Source: ANME-2 cluster archaeon (lineage in GTDB: Archaea; Halobacteriota; Methanosarcinia; Methanosarcinales; Methanocomedenaceae). From it: 64,000 nt of DNA. The translations under genes were made by a program, and so were the position numbers. The DNA is taken from positions 1 to 64,000 of the forward strand of contig JAAXOC010000032.1 in assembly GCA_014237145.1 (NCBI GenBank), read 5' to 3'. Of the stretch, positions 23,638 through 36,125 are shown piece after piece. The notes below the pieces were generated by a model. It had not been told where the DNA came from. It made no database searches and saw nothing but the letters and a program-made list of their open reading frames with translations. How positions within the stretch are numbered: the first letter of the stretch is position 1; each line of letters starts with the position of its first letter.

Positions 23638-24462
23638 TTATACTGCTACCGCTTCTATAACGTATTCCGTCATCTGAATCGACTTTTGTGGGCAGTTCTC
23701 AATACACTGTCCGCAGTTGGTACATTTCTCCTGATCGATCTCAGCCAGGAAATTAGTTACTGTAATAGCATCAGCCGGGCAGTTCTTTACGCATATCTTG
23801 CATCCTATACAGCCAAACTCACACACTGACTTTACAACTTTACCTTTATCATATGACCTGCAGAGTACATGCACTTGTTCAGTATCGTTTGCCATAACAA
23901 GTATATCATTCGGACATGCTTCAACACATATCCCGCAACTCTTACACAGATTTTTAATAACATGCGGTAACCGATCATCCGCCATCTCCAGTGCATTAAA
24001 CGGACATGCACGCACACATGTTCCCCGGCCTATGCATCCGTAACTGCATCCTTTCTCACTATCTGAAAGCATCATAACCGCTTTACAGTCTTCAATACCA
24101 TCATAATCGATCTTATCTGTGCAGTGTATACCTCCATTGCACCTGACAAATGGATAGATACTTTCGGCCTCTTTTACTTCCTGGCCCAGCAGCCCGCCGA
24201 TGACTTTCGCTACGTCAAATCCTCCTACGGGACAGCCATCAATCGGTGCCACCTGGTCCACTACTTTTTCAGCAAAATCAGCACACCCTGCATATCCGCA
24301 TGCTCCACAGTTAGCACCCGGCAGTGCTTCATTGACTTCTTCCACAAGAGGATTGACCTCAACTGCAAATTTTTCAGAGGCCCATATCAGTATAATACCG
24401 ACTAAGAACCCTATACCTCCGATTACAACTGCAGATCCAGCGATAATAGCTACCGGATTCAT
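23638..24462 (-). CDS. rnfB: Rnf complex iron-sulfur subunit B
   Basis: The protein has 274 residues. An N-terminal membrane anchor (about 5-28) is followed by the Fes-type cluster motif GANCGACGYAGCADF with a later DGCPVGG. Then come four ferredoxin-like cysteine groups: GCIGRGTCVRACP, CKSCGICVEACP, CIGCKICVKNCP and CTNCGQCIENCP. It is predicted to accept electrons from ferredoxin and pass them into the complex. It is the last gene of the operon and overlaps rnfA by 4 bp. The order C-D-G-E-A-B is that of Methanosarcina acetivorans. Confidence 0.95.
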   Translation of the reverse strand: MNPVAIIAGSAVVIGGIGFLVGIILIWASEKFAVEVNPLVEEVNEALPGANCGACGYAGCADFAEKVVDQVAPIDGCPVGGFDVAKVIGGLLGQEVKEAESIYPFVRCNGGIHCTDKIDYDGIEDCKAVMMLSDSEKGCSYGCIGRGTCVRACPFNALEMADDRLPHVIKNLCKSCGICVEACPNDILVMANDTEQVHVLCRSYDKGKVVKSVCEFGCIGCKICVKNCPADAITVTNFLAEIDQEKCTNCGQCIENCPQKSIQMTEYVIEAVAV

Positions 24463-25043
24463 GTTGGTATCACTCCGAAGTAGCTGACAAATGCCATTGA
24501 AAGCAATGTAGTAATAAAGAATGCGTGTGGCAGTCCTTCAATAGCTTCCGGAACCTTCAACGAATTGGCCTTCTCACGGATAGCGGACATAAACAACATC
24601 ACCATAGAATATCCCAGACCGGCTGAAATACCATAGAAAAGACTCTGGACAAAGTTGTAATCAAGCCTTGCATTAAGTATCACAACACCAAGAATGGCAC
24701 AGTTGGTGGTTATCAAAGGTAGGAATATACCCAGCGACCGGTACAAAGGAGGACTGAATTTACGAATAATGAACTCAACAAGCTGCACAAGAAAAGCTAT
24801 CACAATAATAAAACTGATTGTTGTTAAGAAGGTCAGCCCAAAGGGTAAAAGGAGATAAGTATATATCAAAAATGAAGCTACCGATGCCATTATCATGACA
24901 AATAATACCGCAGCCGACATGCCTGCAGCACTCTTAGTCTCCTTTGATACACCCACAAATGAACACAGCCCTAGGAACTGGACAAGCAGGAAGTTTTTTA
25001 CAAATATCCCGTTAATTGCAATTGAAAATAAACTATCTTCCAT
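24459..25043 (-). CDS. rnfA: Rnf complex membrane subunit A
   Basis: The protein has 194 residues and six membrane segments. FVKNFLLVQFLGLCSFVGVS carries the conserved Cys that, with the matching Cys of RnfE, is proposed to hold a membrane-embedded iron-sulfur site. FLPLITTNCAILGVVILNAR is the second conserved Cys motif. It is homologous to NqrE. It abuts rnfE and overlaps rnfB by 4 bp. Confidence 0.95.
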   Translation of the reverse strand: MEDSLFSIAINGIFVKNFLLVQFLGLCSFVGVSKETKSAAGMSAAVLFVMIMASVASFLIYTYLLLPFGLTFLTTISFIIVIAFLVQLVEFIIRKFSPPLYRSLGIFLPLITTNCAILGVVILNARLDYNFVQSLFYGISAGLGYSMVMLFMSAIREKANSLKVPEAIEGLPHAFFITTLLSMAFVSYFGVIPT

Positions 25044-25667
25044 TTACTGTCCCCCTTTTCTTGCTTTTCTGATGCGGTTATAATTTACCATTGCCATTAA
25101 TACACCAATAGTCATGAACGCCCCTCCCGGCAGTATCATAAACGTAGAAGGTGTTATGGGTATACTGATCAATTTAAATCCAAAGGGTACAATTGCTCCT
25201 GTTCCTAACAGCTCCCTGATAGCTCCGATGAGCACCAATACGAGAAGGAAACCGGTACCAATGCCCAATGCATCAATAATAGAAAATTTAACAGTGTTCT
25301 TGCTGGCATAGGCTTCGGCCCGTCCGATAATAATACAGTTAACTACAATCAACGGGATGAATATTCCCAGAGACTTATACAGCGGTGGTGTGTACGCTTC
25401 CATTAACATATCAATCATGGTAACAAAAGTACAAATTATAATAATGAACATCGGAATACGGGTGATCGGTGGTATTTGTTTTCTCAGTGCAGACACTATA
25501 ACATTTGATCCTAACAGGACAAACAAAGCCGCTCCCGCCATACCTATAGCATTCTCTACGGATGTGGTGACCGCAAGTACAGGACACAGTCCAAGTACGA
25601 GACTGAAAATAGGGTTATCTTTTACAATTCCTCTAAAATACTCACCTGAAATTGTCATATCTGCCAT
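25044..25667 (-). CDS. rnfE: Rnf complex membrane subunit E
   Basis: The protein has 207 residues and six membrane segments. NPIFSLVLGLCPVLAVTTSV and FIPLIVVNCIIIGRAEAYAS hold the two conserved cysteines, symmetrical to those in RnfA. It is homologous to NqrD. The GGAFMTIGVLMAMVNYNR C-terminal region is typical. It directly precedes rnfA. Confidence 0.95.
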   Translation of the reverse strand: MADMTISGEYFRGIVKDNPIFSLVLGLCPVLAVTTSVENAIGMAGAALFVLLGSNVIVSALRKQIPPITRIPMFIIIICTFVTMIDMLMEAYTPPLYKSLGIFIPLIVVNCIIIGRAEAYASKNTVKFSIIDALGIGTGFLLVLVLIGAIRELLGTGAIVPFGFKLISIPITPSTFMILPGGAFMTIGVLMAMVNYNRIRKARKGGQ

Positions 25668-25689: not shown

Positions 25690-26220
25690 TTAATTTGCTT
25701 TAATCTCACCAATTTTTACATGTATTCCGTCTATCACTGCCTGTGAAGAGACTGTAGCACCTGTGATTGCATCTATTGCACCGTCATTTTTAGAAAGCAT
25801 CAGGTCACTTACTGCAACTCCCTTGAACTGATCGGTAAAGAACGATTCAGTGATCTTTGCACCCAGACCCGGAGTTTCGGCATGTGTCATGATCTTTACT
25901 CCGGTTACCGTATATTCAGTATCAACTCCACCCGCTAATGTGATCGTGCCCTGCGAACCTGGTTGATCATGGAAAAAACAATATCCGACAAGATTATTGC
26001 TTGCATCGAATGCCTGGTAAAATAATGTTTCTTCACCTGATTTAACAGCTTCAAAATGGTCGGCTACAGGAAGCACATCTACCAGGGCAAGCTGTCTTTG
26101 CTCCTCCTGGTATATTTTTAATTGCGCCTGTGTGGGTATATACAGACCCCCTAATATTACAGCAGCAATTACTGACATTGCTACCATTTTCACCATAACC
26201 ATGATATATTCTTTTTTCAT
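25690..26220 (-). CDS. rnfG: Rnf complex FMN-carrying subunit G
   Basis: The protein has 176 residues with one N-terminal membrane segment (about 8-28) and an extracytoplasmic FMN-binding domain. The flavinylation motif is TGATVS at 153-158, with Thr156 as the expected phosphoester-linked FMN site. The conserved MTHAETPGLGAKI region is also present. Flavin attachment would need ApbE, which is encoded at 33.2 kb. The start overlaps the rnfD stop by 4 bp. Confidence 0.95.
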   Translation of the reverse strand: MKKEYIMVMVKMVAMSVIAAVILGGLYIPTQAQLKIYQEEQRQLALVDVLPVADHFEAVKSGEETLFYQAFDASNNLVGYCFFHDQPGSQGTITLAGGVDTEYTVTGVKIMTHAETPGLGAKITESFFTDQFKGVAVSDLMLSKNDGAIDAITGATVSSQAVIDGIHVKIGEIKAN

Positions 26221-27098
26221 GCCGGCACCTCATTTACAGGTTTGGGGTAAGTATTTTTTTCAATGAACGGCGCAACTGCATTGGCAAAGAATACTGTATA
26301 CAGTACAGCTACGACATAATTATATGTAAGATATCCGTAGATCACTGTCATTATACCACATAACAATCCGTATATTATCCTGCCGTTCTTTGTGATCGGG
26401 GAAGTAGTGGGATCCGGAGCCAGTATGAACACTCCTAAAAATAGCATTCCTGTCAGGACATATGAGAGTTCCTCACCAAGTATTACTGCCACAATGATCG
26501 TACTTGAAAGATAAAGTAAAGGGATTCTCCAGTCAATATATTTCTTATATATGAGATACAGTCCCCCAATGATCAGCACCACAGAGGACACTTCCGCCAT
26601 TCTTCCTGCACCGAATTCCATTAAAAGATCAGTATATTCACCTACATGTGGTATGGATTTTGACCCTGTAAGTGCTCCCCAGGACATGTTCATGAACACC
26701 CATGCAGCTATTGCAGGATTGAACAGAGTGGACCCAAGACCGCCGAACCCGTGCTTTACCAGAGCTACAGCAAAGAATGCTCCCAACACTGGTATCCATA
26801 ATTTAATATCTGGCGGTAGTAGTAGTGCCATTATCAATCCGATCAATACAGCATCTCCGTCTCGAATTGTTAACTCCTGGTTTGTTAATTTCTGAATACC
26901 GGCTTCAGTAAGCACAGCAGCCAGAACACTTACCAGTACCAGTGCCAGTGCTGATAAACCTAATGTGATTGATGAACTGGCATACATACCTACAGCCAGT
27001 AGACTGATAAACGCCAGAATTGCTACCTTGCTCCACATAATAGTCTTGATAGTAACTCCTTCCCTGATGTGGGATGGATGTGAAACTGTTAGTTTCAT
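26217..27098 (-). CDS. rnfD: Rnf complex membrane subunit D
   Basis: The protein has 293 residues from the ATG at 27096-27098, which overlaps the rnfC stop as ATGA. A start further upstream inside rnfC is not supported. It has about nine membrane segments. ALVKHGFGGLGSTLFNPAIA is the RnfD/NqrB core motif and ILAPDPTTSPITKNGRIIYG is the conserved late loop. I could not find a clear SGATPL flavinylation motif in the usual loop (about residues 145-165), so the flavin state is uncertain. It is homologous to NqrB. Confidence 0.94.
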   Translation of the reverse strand: MKLTVSHPSHIREGVTIKTIMWSKVAILAFISLLAVGMYASSSITLGLSALALVLVSVLAAVLTEAGIQKLTNQELTIRDGDAVLIGLIMALLLPPDIKLWIPVLGAFFAVALVKHGFGGLGSTLFNPAIAAWVFMNMSWGALTGSKSIPHVGEYTDLLMEFGAGRMAEVSSVVLIIGGLYLIYKKYIDWRIPLLYLSSTIIVAVILGEELSYVLTGMLFLGVFILAPDPTTSPITKNGRIIYGLLCGIMTVIYGYLTYNYVVAVLYTVFFANAVAPFIEKNTYPKPVNEVPA

Positions 27099-28420
27099 AA
27101 TATTCCTCCGTTTGAAATGAATGGTGTACTTGCAAGACATGGTGCATCGCATGAGAGACAGCCGGAAGATCTTTGTTCATCCTCATATTTCAATAACTGC
27201 TGCAGTACTGTCTTGGAATACTTGATCAACTGCAATATATGTCTGCTGGATGGGCACACATAAACACACAGACCGCATTCAACACAGCTGTTAACATGTA
27301 GTTTAAAGCATTCATCATGCATACCCATATCTGCAAAGGATGCAATCCTGCCTGGCAGGATATTAGCAGGACATACATCCACACATCTGGCACATTGAAT
27401 GCATGGGCCCGGTATCTCATGTAGTACTTCATCACTGGACTGGACAATGATGTGGGAAGTAGATTTAATTACCGGCACTTCATCTGTGGACAGGGCTGTA
27501 CCACTGAATATCCCGTTCATTATGATCTTACCCGGCTCGCCTGAATAACCACCACAGGAATCAATAACTTCCTTGATACTGGTTCCAATCCTCACATTTT
27601 TTACTCCAGGGTTGTGTACTGCTCCTGTGACTGTGACATTGACCGTGATCTGGGGTATACCCTCTAGCACAGCTTTGCGAACTGCCAGAGCACTACCAGC
27701 GCTTGATAGTAACACACCTGCATCCAGAGGTGTGCAGGTATTAGGAATTTGCATACCAGTTATTTCATACGTAAGAAGGTTTGCCATAGATGGTGAATAA
27801 TTCTGCTCGACAGTGAATATTTCAATATCTGCTTCTTCAAACAACCCGGATTCAATAGCTGATATAAGCTGTCTATCATCCTTTTGAATAATGAAGGCTC
27901 CTTGCTGTGCATCAGAAGCTTTGATGAGCAGATTCATCCCTTCGATGATACTTGTTATATTTTCCGGTGCACAATTACTGCTCACATCACCTGAAAAAGA
28001 AAGATTTATTAAAACCGTATCGATCAGTTTTTCAGATGTGAGCATATTATAAAGGGAGTACCCGTTAAGTTCAACCACTCCCGAATCCTTCAGTGCACTG
28101 ATGATATATTCCTTTGAGGGATTTTTACTGGTTTTAAATTCAATAGTATCGTTTGTTTCGTTTGATTCAATAATGACACTCGGTACGCTGCCGCAAACAG
28201 GATGGGGCCGTTCTTCAATAGCAACAACATGTCCTGCAGTACTGGAGTGGACCGGGACACTGAACTCATCATTCCCCTCTCCGATCTTTTGGCCGACGAG
28301 CACGTCAGTTTTTTTATCCACTATCGGTTCGCAAACAGTACCGATGTGCTGCAACAATGGAATAACTACCTGCTTTCGAACCTCTTTATCCTTAACCTTT
28401 TTCACGTCTTCTGTTGTCAT
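27095..28420 (-). CDS. rnfC: Rnf complex iron-sulfur subunit C
   Basis: The protein has 441 residues. The N-terminal 120 residues form the barrel-sandwich region, followed by an SLBB-like fold (NPGVKNVRIGTSIKEVIDSC). The C-terminus carries two [4Fe-4S] motifs, CIQCARCVDVCP and CVECGLCVYVCP. The Rossmann-type FMN/NADH-binding half found in bacterial RnfC is weak, with no clear glycine-rich NADH loop, which suits a complex that does not use NAD. It is coupled to the upstream cytochrome gene by a 4-bp ATGA overlap, a strong sign that the cytochrome works with Rnf. Confidence 0.93.
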   Translation of the reverse strand: MTTEDVKKVKDKEVRKQVVIPLLQHIGTVCEPIVDKKTDVLVGQKIGEGNDEFSVPVHSSTAGHVVAIEERPHPVCGSVPSVIIESNETNDTIEFKTSKNPSKEYIISALKDSGVVELNGYSLYNMLTSEKLIDTVLINLSFSGDVSSNCAPENITSIIEGMNLLIKASDAQQGAFIIQKDDRQLISAIESGLFEEADIEIFTVEQNYSPSMANLLTYEITGMQIPNTCTPLDAGVLLSSAGSALAVRKAVLEGIPQITVNVTVTGAVHNPGVKNVRIGTSIKEVIDSCGGYSGEPGKIIMNGIFSGTALSTDEVPVIKSTSHIIVQSSDEVLHEIPGPCIQCARCVDVCPANILPGRIASFADMGMHDECFKLHVNSCVECGLCVYVCPSSRHILQLIKYSKTVLQQLLKYEDEQRSSGCLSCDAPCLASTPFISNGGIL

Positions 28421-29850
28421 TTAACCACCTCTACCGGTTTTGGTCTTTCCGGAATTACATCTACGGTGATTTCATAAGTGGTAAAATCAGTTGGCGGATC
28501 TGTCTGGGCAGGGTCTGCTTCATATCCTAATAGTGTCCAGTCTATCCTGGAAGTATTGCCATGGCAGTCAGCACACCATAGTGCACTTTTTTCCATAGCA
28601 CTTTTTGCTCCTACTATGTTGTGGCTTACCAGATAATATGCATCCACTCGCCTCAATACTGCATTAGGATAATCAGGGATCTTGTCATAATTAAAATCAA
28701 ATGTTCGCATTCTATTTGTGCTCTCTTCAATATCAGTTGAAATACCGATAGCTCTCACATGTGACAGGACAATGGGACTGCCCCTGTGCGTACTTGTGTT
28801 AGGATTGTTACGAATGTCCACATCATTTCCTTCATCCCACCAGGATATGGTTATCACATTAAAAGGTTTAATTACCGCATCAGGATCATCTTTGTCACAA
28901 GAATGAGGTATACCTTCTTCTGAACCATTGAACCAGGCCAATACAGGATTAAAATCCTGCCATTCATTTGTGACCTTTCTATAACCGTTCGAATAATCTA
29001 TTGAAGATATTGGCATACCGCCCGGTAGCTCTCCACCTGGTAGTACAGGTATATGGCATGCTTCACATCCCACCGTCTTAATATGAGCATCTACGACCAT
29101 TCCATGTGTGACTTCTGAATGACAGTCAATACATGATTTCATGGGATAGAAATTGTCCTGAACCGTTTCTGAAAAAACCGGAATGCTGTCCCTGCCGATC
29201 TGATGGTCATTCGTCACATGACAATCCAGGCATCCAACACCAGCACTTGCATGAACGTCATAGGATGCAAAATCATCACTACCCCACATCTCGGCACTGA
29301 TCGCAACATCGGACAAATGGCACTTATTGGCACAAGTGTTAGCAGAAGGACTGGTCCAGTAAAGTATTTCACTATCATTGTTCGTGTCATCCAAATGGCA
29401 TGTTGCACAATCAGTTGTTATACTACTTCCAATAATTCCATCAGCATCATGAATTGTATATACCGACTCATCTTTTATATGGCAGTTAGTACATTCTACT
29501 TGCATGGCAGCAGTAGCAATGCTTGAAGTGTGTGTGGGAATACCCTGTGTATGACACTGGTCGCACCCTCTGACCAATTTATTAGTCCCTTCCCTGTTAA
29601 CAAGATTTAAAAACAGCAGATCCCATTGTTCATCTATAGACTTCCTGCTGACTTGTTGTACATGATACGAGTTGACTAAATCTTCATTTGCATCATGATG
29701 ACAGCCTTTGCATTTACTATCTTCCCATGGACCTGTACTAATATAATGAGTAGCTTTAGCCTGGTTTCCATTATAATTAAGGTTGCCGTAAGAGATTGTA
29801 ATAAGAGCTATTAATGTGATAATTAGAAGTACTGTGATTATTTTTTTCAA
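28417..29850 (-). CDS. mmcA: Multihaem cytochrome c of the Rnf operon (MmcA-like)
   Basis: The protein has 477 residues with an N-terminal signal/anchor (KKIITVLLIITLIALITISY). I count eight CxxCH haem motifs (CKGCH, CDQCH, CTNCH, CATCH, CLDCH, CIDCH, CEACH, CADCH) plus one CANKCH, a CX3CH variant, so up to nine haems. Distal His residues occur between them. In Methanosarcina acetivorans the equivalent MmcA passes electrons between Rnf and methanophenazine or external acceptors. The role here is inferred from synteny and the ATGA overlap with rnfC. The C-terminal 40 residues are Pro-rich and haem-free. Confidence 0.92.
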   Translation of the reverse strand: MKKIITVLLIITLIALITISYGNLNYNGNQAKATHYISTGPWEDSKCKGCHHDANEDLVNSYHVQQVSRKSIDEQWDLLFLNLVNREGTNKLVRGCDQCHTQGIPTHTSSIATAAMQVECTNCHIKDESVYTIHDADGIIGSSITTDCATCHLDDTNNDSEILYWTSPSANTCANKCHLSDVAISAEMWGSDDFASYDVHASAGVGCLDCHVTNDHQIGRDSIPVFSETVQDNFYPMKSCIDCHSEVTHGMVVDAHIKTVGCEACHIPVLPGGELPGGMPISSIDYSNGYRKVTNEWQDFNPVLAWFNGSEEGIPHSCDKDDPDAVIKPFNVITISWWDEGNDVDIRNNPNTSTHRGSPIVLSHVRAIGISTDIEESTNRMRTFDFNYDKIPDYPNAVLRRVDAYYLVSHNIVGAKSAMEKSALWCADCHGNTSRIDWTLLGYEADPAQTDPPTDFTTYEITVDVIPERPKPVEVVK

Positions 29851-29898
29851 TTTAATCCCACATTTATTGTCATTTATTTTTCGTATAGCAATTTTACA

Positions 29899-30156
29899 TT
29901 ATTTCTTTTGTGCATGTATAGACGCTTCCCTGGCTGGTGAATAAAGCGGATGGCGCCGCGTTTTATTCAATATTTTCAGCGATTTGGAAAAACCATATAA
30001 CAGTGCTAAGATCTGTGTCAATACCAGAGCAAGGGCTAAATTCAGCCCAACAGTAATAAGAGTACCAGAGGTCATTATATTTGTTTCAACAAGGACAATT
30101 GTCAGCATTGCAAACAATACCAGTGGAAAACCAATTTTTTCAATCATGAGTCTCAC
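29899..30156 (-). CDS. Small two-TM membrane protein in rnf operon
   Basis: The protein has 85 residues (82 from the second Met). Two membrane segments are at about 8-27 and 33-55, followed by a basic tail (KSLKILNKTRRHPLYSPARE). There are no Cys and only His residues in the tail. It overlaps the cytochrome b gene by 8-17 bp and is followed by a 48-bp gap before the multihaem cytochrome. It could be an accessory subunit joining cytochrome b to Rnf. I do not recognise the family. Confidence 0.75.
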   Translation of the reverse strand: MRLMIEKIGFPLVLFAMLTIVLVETNIMTSGTLITVGLNLALALVLTQILALLYGFSKSLKILNKTRRHPLYSPAREASIHAQKK

Positions 30157-30820
30157 CTGTAACCTCTCTGTACCATTTCGGATATTCTTCTCTTGCTTCT
30201 TCTTCGGAAATTGTCCCTGTAAACATACTTTTTGACATAGGGAACTTAAATTGGCTCAAATGGACTAAATAGAAATGTGGCAGAATGACACAAAGGCTCA
30301 ATATAGCGAAACTGGCATGTACTAACCTTATGGTCATCAAATACGACAATGGAAGAATAGATGTAAATGACCATGGTGCAAAAAGGATAATGCCTGTTAT
30401 ACCCATGATGATACAGTCTACTATAATAACACTCCAGATCAGGCCTTTTTCAAGCCAGCTATATTTATCGTAATCAATTCTTTGTTGCTGCATACCCAGT
30501 ATTGACAGGTTATCATTCACATAATCAATTATATCAGCAGACGTAGGGAATAGAATCTTGCTATAATATTCTCTACCATTAATTATTACTGAAAAAATAG
30601 AATATATAAGATAATACACAGCTACCGACACCAGTCCAAACCCGGCCAGTCTGTGAATGAACATCGCTTTTGACAGTCCGACAAGATCCAGTATCCATCC
30701 GAGATGTTCAGGATATAGCTGTGGAATCCCTGTAATATATAATACCAGCAGAGAAAGAGCTGCAATAAAATGAACAATAATCTGGTTTGAAGTAAATCTT
30801 TCTATCTCCAAAATAATCAC
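30140..30820 (-). CDS. Membrane-bound cytochrome b (FdnI/PhsC/HupC-like)
   Basis: The protein has 226 residues and four main membrane segments. Candidate haem ligands are His17 (IIVHFIAALSLLVLYITG), His56 (FIHRLAGFGLV), and His168, His182 and His187 (LVHASFAILSLCVILPHFY). This is the layout of di-haem cytochromes b of formate dehydrogenase, thiosulfate reductase and hydrogenases, which exchange electrons with membrane quinones or methanophenazine. A 4-bp overlap with the upstream small gene and the overlap with the next gene place it in the rnf transcription unit. It is not part of the M. acetivorans rnf operon as I know it. Confidence 0.88.
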   Translation of the reverse strand: MIILEIERFTSNQIIVHFIAALSLLVLYITGIPQLYPEHLGWILDLVGLSKAMFIHRLAGFGLVSVAVYYLIYSIFSVIINGREYYSKILFPTSADIIDYVNDNLSILGMQQQRIDYDKYSWLEKGLIWSVIIVDCIIMGITGIILFAPWSFTSILPLSYLMTIRLVHASFAILSLCVILPHFYLVHLSQFKFPMSKSMFTGTISEEEAREEYPKWYREVTGETHD

Positions 30821-31074
30821 CCTCTATAAAAACCTTTCATTCTTGTAAATATAATATGCATCAGGATCAGATTGATTGTGAGGCCGACAACACTGAAGAT
30901 AACATAGAACTTTATCAAATAATCAATCCATAATACGTCCTGCGAATCAACTATAATTTGTTTTTCAGGATAATATGTCAGGTTGAAAAACAGTAATAAA
31001 CCTGATATTATAATAAAAGTTAATAATAGTGATATTATTCCGAAATTATTTGTTTTATCTTTCATTTTATCCAC
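30817..31074 (-). CDS. Small two-TM membrane protein, first gene of rnf unit
   Basis: The protein has 85 residues. Membrane segments at about 12-30 and 48-72 are separated by a loop (NLTYYPEKQIIVDSQDVL). It is translationally coupled to cytochrome b by a 4-bp overlap. The Met at residue 4 is an alternative start. It has no metal-binding motif. It probably helps to anchor or assemble the cytochrome (inference from position). Confidence 0.75.
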   Translation of the reverse strand: MDKMKDKTNNFGIISLLLTFIIISGLLLFFNLTYYPEKQIIVDSQDVLWIDYLIKFYVIFSVVGLTINLILMHIIFTRMKGFYRG

Positions 31075-33207: not shown

Positions 33208-34269
33208 ATGGACGACCACCAACATAGGACAATCATATATTTATTTGCGCTGATAGTAATAACAGTAGCCCTGTTTACGATCTATACCCATTTTCCGGCC
33301 GGTACTGATAATGGAGGTAGCAATAATCTCATTGCAGAAAGTAATGTGGGCAACAATGATGTCATTGCAGAAAGCCAGCAATTGATGGGGACTATTGTTA
33401 CTATAGAGATAGTCAGCACAAAAACCAATGCAGAAACCACAATAAATAGTGCTTTTAAAGAAATTGACCGAATTGAAAAATTAATGACCACTTTTGATTC
33501 CAACAGTGAAATAGGTATATTGAACGCTGAGGGGCAGGTGGATAACGTATCCTATGACCTCATTTATGTAATCGAACAGTCAATATACTACAGTAATATA
33601 AGTGACGGAGCCTTTGATGTCACAATAAAACCCATACTTGACCTGTGGAAAACAAAAATAATTGCAGGCGAATATCCCACAGGGCAGGAAATTAATGAAA
33701 CCCTGACCCTTGTGAACTATACTAATATTTCAGCAGAGAACAAAACTATTTACTTCAATGCAGAAGGTATGTCCATTACCGTGGATGGCATAGCCAAAGG
33801 GTATGCTGTGGACCAGGCAGTCAGAGTGTTAAAAAATAACGGATATGCAAGTGGTTTTGTAAATGCCGGAGGCGACGGCATGTATTTTGGTACCAGGCCG
33901 GACGGTTCTGACTGGAAAGTGGGACTTAGAAATCCTGAGAATAAGAGCGAGTCTATTGTTGTCATGGAGATATCAGACAAGGCAGTGGCCACCAGCGGAA
34001 ATTATGAGCGCTATTTTAATGAATCTGCCCGGGTCTCCCACATCAGCGACCCAAGGACAGGATACTCATCACAAAGTCTTTTAAGTGCAACAATAATAGC
34101 AGGTTCGGCCATGGAAGCGGACACACTGGCCACCACCGTTTTCGTACTTGGACCCGACAAAGGTCTAAAACTGATTGAGAATATACACAATACAGAGTGT
34201 ATACTTATAACCCCAAATAATGAGATATTGACATCATCAGGTTTTTATATATACCTGTCAAATACCTAA
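33208..34269 (+). CDS. apbE: FAD:protein FMN transferase
   Basis: The protein has 353 residues. An N-terminal membrane anchor (about 8-28) places the enzyme outside the membrane. The ApbE core is clear: LMGTIVTIEIVS, FDVTIKPILDLWK, ITVDGIAKGYAVDQAV, SGFVNAGGDGMYFGTRPDG and the late ATSGNYERYF plus HISDPRTGYS. It transfers FMN from FAD to a Thr or Ser, using a metal ion. The likely substrate here is Thr156 of RnfG, whose gene is 7 kb away. The stop codon overlaps the stop of the convergent gene by 4 bp. Confidence 0.93.
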   Translation: MDDHQHRTIIYLFALIVITVALFTIYTHFPAGTDNGGSNNLIAESNVGNNDVIAESQQLMGTIVTIEIVSTKTNAETTINSAFKEIDRIEKLMTTFDSNSEIGILNAEGQVDNVSYDLIYVIEQSIYYSNISDGAFDVTIKPILDLWKTKIIAGEYPTGQEINETLTLVNYTNISAENKTIYFNAEGMSITVDGIAKGYAVDQAVRVLKNNGYASGFVNAGGDGMYFGTRPDGSDWKVGLRNPENKSESIVVMEISDKAVATSGNYERYFNESARVSHISDPRTGYSSQSLLSATIIAGSAMEADTLATTVFVLGPDKGLKLIENIHNTECILITPNNEILTSSGFYIYLSNT

Positions 34270-35542: not shown

Positions 35543-35683
35543 GAGATTGTCGAAAATGTACCTAAAAAGCGCTTAAATTGAAACTTTCGAAATTAGTATT
35601 CTAATTAAATCATTATGCTGCGCCATGTCAACTTTAGACCGTAAAGCTGAAATATTGAACAACAAGGCTTTTCCGACAGTCTC
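35543..35683. mobile_element. MITE-like element, family A, copy 2
   Basis: This 141-bp element has inverted ends GAGATTGTCGAAAA and TTTTCCGACAGTCTC. An exact 5-bp target duplication AGTCT flanks it (35538-35542 and 35684-35688). It is the reverse orientation of the copy at 18399-18538 and matches it along its length with scattered differences. It lies upstream of the DUF4870 gene and creates a spurious open frame that runs into that gene. Confidence 0.9.
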
Positions 35684-35786
35684 AGTCTGTGAATTTTTTG
35701 AAACGCAAAAGGCTTTTAATAGTTTAAATTATAATGCTATATTGTATATCATAAATCATTATAATTCCATTATGGAGGATAATTTT

Positions 35787-36125
35787 ATGGATGAAAACGA
35801 AACTGTAGTAGAAACAGAAATTGTAGCAAAAACAGAATCGAAAGACAATGATAATATAATGGCAGCTCTTGCCTATTTGCTTGGATCTATAAGCGGAATC
35901 ATTATTTACTTGATTGAAAAAGATAAACCTGACAAAAGCAGGTTCGTAATGTTCCATGCTGTGCAGGCGATTATCTTAGGTCTTGTGTGGTTTATCCTTT
36001 CGTATGTTCCAGTCATTGGACAGTTAGTAATATTTATCACATGGGTATTAATGATGTATAAAGCATATTCAGGAGAGGAATACCATCTACCTGTGATTGG
36101 CGAATATGCTGAGAAATATATCTAA
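35787..36125 (+). CDS. DUF4870/Tic20-like membrane protein
   Basis: The protein has 112 residues from the ATG at 35787, which has GGAGG at 35774-35778 as ribosome binding site. An open frame continues upstream to 35625 but crosses the MITE and is not credible. Three or four membrane segments occur with the family pattern AALAYLLGSISGIIIYLIEK, then SRFVMFHAVQAIILGLV and VIGQLVIFITWVLMMYKAY. The role of DUF4870 proteins is unknown. The acidic N-terminus (DENETVVETEIVAKTESKDN) is probably disordered. Confidence 0.85.
   Translation: MDENETVVETEIVAKTESKDNDNIMAALAYLLGSISGIIIYLIEKDKPDKSRFVMFHAVQAIILGLVWFILSYVPVIGQLVIFITWVLMMYKAYSGEEYHLPVIGEYAEKYI

Follow-up and report, generated by a model that had tools for sequence, protein, structure and literature searches.

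A formate dehydrogenase-type cytochrome b and two small membrane proteins linked to the mmcA-rnf cluster of an ANME-2 archaeon

The route by which electrons of the membrane pool get to external cytochromes has yet to be settled for anaerobic methanotrophic archaea (ANME), and the question also arises at the Rnf locus on contig JAAXOC010000032.1 of an ANME-2 cluster archaeon (assembly GCA_014237145.1; positions 1 to 64,000, the 64,000 nucleotide stretch analyzed here and called the window): which part could a cytochrome b encoded directly ahead of an Rnf complex play in such a route? Genes for a protein with two transmembrane (TM) helices (TMa), the cytochrome b, a second two-TM protein (TMb), and the multiheme cytochrome c MmcA run into rnfCDGEAB (Table 1), as a preliminary description of the locus had claimed, and the linkage goes beyond chance as it recurred in all 12 RnfE-positive genomes of the family. 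The same description had proposed that the b-type subunit connects methanophenazine with external cytochromes, which is still the most natural reading, but it missed both the relationship of the cytochrome b to the formate dehydrogenase (FDH) gamma subunit and its partnership with the small proteins. The locus probably encodes an ANME-type Rnf with a membrane module borrowed from formate dehydrogenase (TMa, cytochrome b, and TMb), in which MmcA would replace FdhAB as the outside partner.

The cytochrome b-Rnf linkage is real, conserved, and functionally plausible, and it has already been reported. The main text of Chadwick et al. (2022; PMC9012536) presented a b-type cytochrome in the rnf cluster as an ANME-specific modification found in ANME-2a, 2b, and 3 and suggested that it may oxidize methanophenazine with transfer of the electrons to the Rnf-associated cytochrome c, and a gain of cytochrome b/b6 genes close to the RNF cluster was described for ANME-2a/b, ANME-2d, and ANME-3 (mLife, 2022; PMC10989977). 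The core finding and its interpretation are therefore published, including the linkage that the preliminary description had taken for a new observation and the function it had proposed. The window cluster is no different in kind from the ANME-type Rnf cluster set out in the main text of the former study, in that a cytochrome b and a cytochrome c are linked to rnf. Added here are the identity of the cytochrome b as part of an FDH module, the two co-travelling two-TM subunits, the fusion of TMa with the cytochrome b in one genus, and an MmcA with nine heme motifs. The novelty of TMa and TMb holds against the main text of Chadwick et al., the supplement of which may describe them.

Cytochrome b and RnfE were searched in 186 genomes of the order, within which the family of the window genome (f1) is called ANME-2a/b, genus g27 of the Methanosarcinaceae is called ANME-3 from kinship, mcrA, and the published cytochrome b distribution, and family f3 is taken as ANME-2c; strain B4-03 is an ANME-2a member (PMC10052568), and mcrA is present in the window genome. 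Besides the complete representation in ANME-2a/b, the cytochrome b was identified in five of the six RnfE-positive g27 genomes plus G182, where the contig ends beside the cytochrome b gene. Absence of the linkage from close relatives was thus looked for and its presence was found. No such cytochrome b was detected in the 73 other RnfE-positive Methanosarcinaceae genomes and the 14 of family f3, with exceptions limited to a divergent stand-alone cytochrome b in G074 and a fragmentary match (E = 7e-4) in G082. Within the reach of the contigs, the loci of ANME-2a/b and ANME-3 maintained the gene order TMa-cytb-TMb-mmcA-rnf, and the cytochrome b family had one match in the window genome, with no Rnf-linked copy elsewhere in it.

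Two further features of the rnf loci were recorded. A gene for a protein of 131-135 amino acids without a Pfam or NCBIfam family, here called P133, lies just upstream of mmcA or of the trio in many loci (e.g., L051:6085-6486, L055:10312-10713, and L088:10296-10700); it is situated between TMb and mmcA in the ANME-2 genus g3 and ahead of TMa in ANME-3, and none of the window-lineage loci read contained it. In the ANME-2a/b genome G007, a gene for an MFS-type transporter sits between mmcA and rnfC (L049:6616-7827).

The five candidate heme histidines that the preliminary description had counted in the cytochrome b correspond to H17, H56, H168, H182, and H187, all invariant across 20 homologues, and the sole PDB sequence match of the cytochrome b profile was E. 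coli FdnI, the gamma subunit of formate dehydrogenase-N (1kqf_C; E = 3.9e-16). Four of these residues (H17, H56, H168, and H182) aligned with FdnI H18, H57, H155, and H169, such that four heme-ligand positions are kept. In the FdnI structure (1KQF), these histidines ligate the inner and outer hemes, and menaquinone binds near the inner heme. Both proteins share the four-TM cytochrome b fold, and in the alignment the KYNAGQK loop of FdnI faces a Lys-Tyr/Phe-x-Trp...Lys loop that connects TM2 with TM3. The nearest NCBIfam model was TIGR01583 (FDH gamma; E = 5e-17), the equivalog cut-off of which was missed (62.6 versus 115.85 bits). The fold was examined on the natural TMa-cytochrome b fusion of ANME-2 locus L053 in place of the window protein, giving an AlphaFold model with a core mostly at predicted local distance difference test (pLDDT) values of 81-91 and, in Foldseek, 1kqf_C as the best and only significant match (E = 1e-6; TM-score 0.81 by target length). 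By sequence and heme ligands, the Rnf-linked cytochrome b belongs to the FdnI type and not to the VhtC type. Assignment to the hydrogenase/VhtC-type cytochromes b was rejected with an E-value of 0.009 for TIGR02125 versus 5e-17 for FDH gamma. This sets it apart from Mco of ANME-2a/b, which the main text of Chadwick et al. (2022; PMC9012536) likewise proposed as a methanophenazine:cytochrome c oxidoreductase made of a cytochrome b and a multiheme cytochrome c, where the cytochrome b is VhtC-like and of the hydrogenase family.

The resemblance to formate dehydrogenases extended to the neighboring genes. Loci L059, L061-L063, and L104 encode in succession an FdhB-type 4Fe-4S protein, a two-TM protein, the cytochrome b, and a TMb homologue, preceded by FdhA (molybdopterin oxidoreductase) where the contig reaches, and twin-arginine motifs are visible in the FdhA of L059, L061, L107, and L109. 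In exported formate dehydrogenases, FdhA and FdhB lie outside and hand electrons to the cytochrome b. Exported FdhAB of other archaea is followed by what is taken to be the same trio, with TMa and TMb as neighbors of the cytochrome b (L059, L061, and L104) in the same manner as in the Rnf trio, whereas MmcA and Rnf take the place of FdhA/FdhB beside the Rnf-linked cytochrome b and neither of the latter is encoded between 23638 and 34269 of the window.

No Pfam family was matched by TMa or TMb, and both are co-travelling partners of the cytochrome b. TMb was present in 19 of the 186 genomes and only beside this cytochrome b, and its homology between the Rnf and FDH settings was significant (E = 1e-9 to 4e-5). 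In other Halobacteriota-type genomes, some FDH cytochromes b bear at the C-terminus a pair of TM helices with homology to TMb (hhalign 93.5%), with the TMb hidden Markov model (HMM) giving E = 6e-10 for L112 and weaker values for others. The AlphaFold model of L112 had a good core and a fused end partly of low confidence, and matched FdnI only in Foldseek. TMa is fused to the N-terminus of the cytochrome b in genus g3 (L051-L054; TMa HMM E ~1e-19). Identity of TMa or TMb with MA0665, of a family of three-TM DUF4870-like proteins, was rejected (hhalign probability <1% for both).

The window MmcA, which matched cytochrome c families in Pfam, scored 369 bits against TIGR04314 (methano7heme), over the equivalog cut-off of 250, and contains nine heme motifs (eight CxxCH and one CxxxCH), not the seven of that family, the two extra motifs being N-terminal CxxCH. 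Nine-motif MmcA was observed in the window lineage in g1, g2, g4, and G015 (window 28417-29850; L045-L050 and L084); the two extra N-terminal motifs are absent from MmcA of g3 and Methanosarcina acetivorans, and one of them occurs in G185. The M. acetivorans Rnf-MmcA system (MA0658-MA0665; locus L085) has the mmcA-rnfCDGEAB order and the MmcA family in common with the window but lacks the cytochrome b, TMa, and TMb, in agreement with the preliminary description of this rnf cluster as having a cytochrome c and no cytochrome b. It further differs in that MA0665 follows rnfB and in that its MmcA has seven heme motifs against nine in the window. The M. acetivorans protein spans -100 to -450 mV and can exchange electrons both with an analogue of methanophenazine and with external acceptors (PMC11024163).

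If the trio forms a complex with Rnf and MmcA, electrons from ferredoxin would pass through Rnf to MmcA at the outer face, MmcA would exchange electrons with the outer heme of the cytochrome b, and these, in the manner of FdnI, would cross the membrane to the inner heme and to a site for methanophenazine close to the cytoplasmic face. A module of the FDH-gamma type predicts two hemes b, binding of methanophenazine close to the inner face, docking of MmcA where FdhB docks, and coupling to the membrane potential. Outward flow is more likely during methane oxidation, when Fpo and HdrDE would reduce methanophenazine and the cytochrome b would oxidize it, passing the electrons to MmcA and on to external cytochromes; in ANME-3, HdrE is the only other candidate cytochrome b according to the main text of Chadwick et al. 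(2022; PMC9012536). With the FdnI topology, outward flow would release protons inside and move electrons out at the expense of the membrane potential, so that exported electrons could have a lower potential than the methanophenazine pool. Such a lower export potential would matter because the potential of sulfate/sulfide (-217 mV) lies below that of methanophenazine (-165 mV), an energy-sharing problem described in the main text of the same study (PMC9012536). Inward flow would instead add to energy conservation. The near-restriction of the module to methane oxidizers favors the outward direction, and the sequence itself decides neither. A bolder proposal, speculative and rather unlikely to be right in full, is that Rnf in ANME-2a/b and ANME-3 acquired the whole exported-FDH module and runs it in reverse with the membrane potential driving electrons to MmcA; if true, electrons would reach the sulfate-reducing partner below the potential of the methanophenazine pool, which would address the energy-sharing problem.

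Several observations weigh against a borrowed module serving Rnf. Genome G185, of the same genus as ANME-3 by group codes and with mcrA present, has Rnf and MmcA and lacks the trio at that locus. The homology of TMa between the Rnf and FDH settings is borderline (E ~0.01), its assignment relying mainly on position and size, and AlphaFold places TMa unreliably on the cytochrome b, with pLDDT values for TMa of 43-61 that are not interpretable. Finally, the M. acetivorans MmcA reduces the methanophenazine analogue without any cytochrome b (PMC11024163), so that this step in itself can proceed without the cytochrome b module.

The trio might alternatively be an independent methanophenazine:cytochrome c oxidoreductase that is co-regulated with Rnf and uses MmcA jointly without being an Rnf subunit, an explanation that is doubtful but deserves consideration as the trio, or a similar cytochrome b with small proteins, occurs without rnf beside FDH genes or a 13-heme cytochrome c (L110). 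Its adjacency to mmcA-rnf was nevertheless kept in two lineages, with intergenic distances upstream of mmcA of 15-18 bp or an overlap in L047, L048, and most ANME-3 loci, and the independent oxidoreductase differs from the Rnf-attached module only in physical attachment, which is beyond sequence to decide. The same module could also work mainly in the opposite direction, from ferredoxin through Rnf, MmcA, and the cytochrome b to methanophenazine reduced near the cytoplasmic face, and would then supplement the sodium pump of Rnf with a proton-motive half-loop like that of FdnGHI. FdnI-type enzymes run in that direction, and the heme ligands and fold are conserved. The potentials of MmcA also lie mostly below that of methanophenazine (PMC11024163). 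This direction is still considered unlikely as the main one, in view of the 73 RnfE-positive Methanosarcinaceae genomes that run ferredoxin to methanophenazine without the module; since the module is found in ANME lineages and not in those genomes, a role in electron export is favored. That the trio is a mere neighboring transcription unit with its own function, unconnected to Rnf electron flow, is very improbable, for although a promoter could fit into the 48-127 bp left free in front of mmcA in several ANME-2 loci, the distances are far shorter in the loci named above, the trio stands beside mmcA-rnf in two lineages with differing positions relative to P133, and the single family match in the window genome leaves no second Rnf-linked copy.

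Phylogenetic analysis placed the Rnf-linked cytochromes b of ANME-2a/b and ANME-3 in one group joined to the FDH-linked ones, and the ANME-3 Rnf core nested within the Methanosarcinaceae, suggesting that the trio moved independently of Rnf. One lineage seems to have acquired the trio separately from Rnf, the alternative being its loss in all other relatives, and the main text of Chadwick et al. (2022; PMC9012536) allowed for an arrival of the cytochrome b apart from Rnf. The differing position of the trio relative to P133 in g3 and ANME-3 fits a separate insertion or a later rearrangement. Co-transfer of mmcA with the trio into ANME-3 is suggestive only: the MmcA tree test rejected a grouping of ANME-3, G185, and G074 (p = 0.001) and RnfC did not (p = 0.11). 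The unconstrained RnfC tree, however, is much alike in shape, and there are long branches; co-transfer is therefore not relied on. Low approximately unbiased test p-values for the RnfC groupings "A3+A2" and "A3+G185" were left unused, being at least partly due to the nesting of G074 inside ANME-3. The Methanosarcinaceae genus g14 (G074 and G075; L070, L071, and L098) gave no mcrA match in its two incomplete genomes (~75% complete); rnf of G074 was placed inside ANME-3 in the tree, and its MmcA is short.

The genes of the run (Table 1) are closely packed and may be co-transcribed. Overlaps of 4 bp occur at five junctions (TMa/cytb, mmcA/rnfC, rnfC/rnfD, rnfD/rnfG, and rnfA/rnfB), so that their earlier attribution to most junctions was fair, while cytb shares 8 or 17 bp with TMb, rnfE directly abuts rnfA, and gaps are found 5' of mmcA (48 bp) and rnfE (22 bp). 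A sigma-70 promoter scan, with a model unsuited to archaea, gave hits at about the shuffled expectation. The divergent apbE lies near rnf and outside the run, with two universal-stress-type genes intervening.

Table 1. Genes of the TMa-cytb-TMb-mmcA-rnf run and the nearby apbE, in window coordinates
Feature	Coordinates	Strand	Description and basis
TMa	31074-30817	minus	85 aa, 2 predicted TM helices; putative partner of cytochrome b
cytochrome b	30820-30140	minus	226 aa, 4 TM; Pfam PF01292, E = 2.9e-13
TMb	30156-29899	minus	2 TM; probable ATG start at 30147
mmcA	29850-28417	minus	MmcA-family multiheme cytochrome c, 477 aa, N-terminal signal/TM segment
rnfC	27095-28420	minus	RnfC_N, Complex1_51K, SLBB, Fer4
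rnfD	26217-27098	minus	PF03116 (NQR2_RnfD_RnfE); start ATG 27098
rnfG	25690-26220	minus	FMN_bind PF04205
rnfE	25044-25667	minus	Order and length; homologues in 105/186 genomes of the order
rnfA	24459-25043	minus	Order; 194-aa multi-TM protein
rnfB	23638-24462	minus	Ferredoxin-type, N-terminal TM; final gene of the run
apbE	33208-34269	plus	Flavin transferase for Rnf; PF02424, E = 9e-82

Past apbE and outside the rnf run, the window encodes on the plus strand (35625-36125) a membrane protein of 166 aa that weakly matches DUF4870 and distantly resembles MA0665. In the mcrA-bearing genome G203 of another family, locus L110:6688-8740 encodes a cytochrome b with a predicted N-terminal TM extension, a 62-aa two-TM protein, and the 13-heme cytochrome c, an architecture resembling TMa-cytb-TMb-mmcA but without rnf. 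In the genomes of family f4 (taken as Methanoperedens-type) and one f2 genome that hold L072-L079, L082, and L083, a hexaheme cytochrome c of ~290-320 aa is encoded directly before a more distant cytochrome b of the same superfamily.

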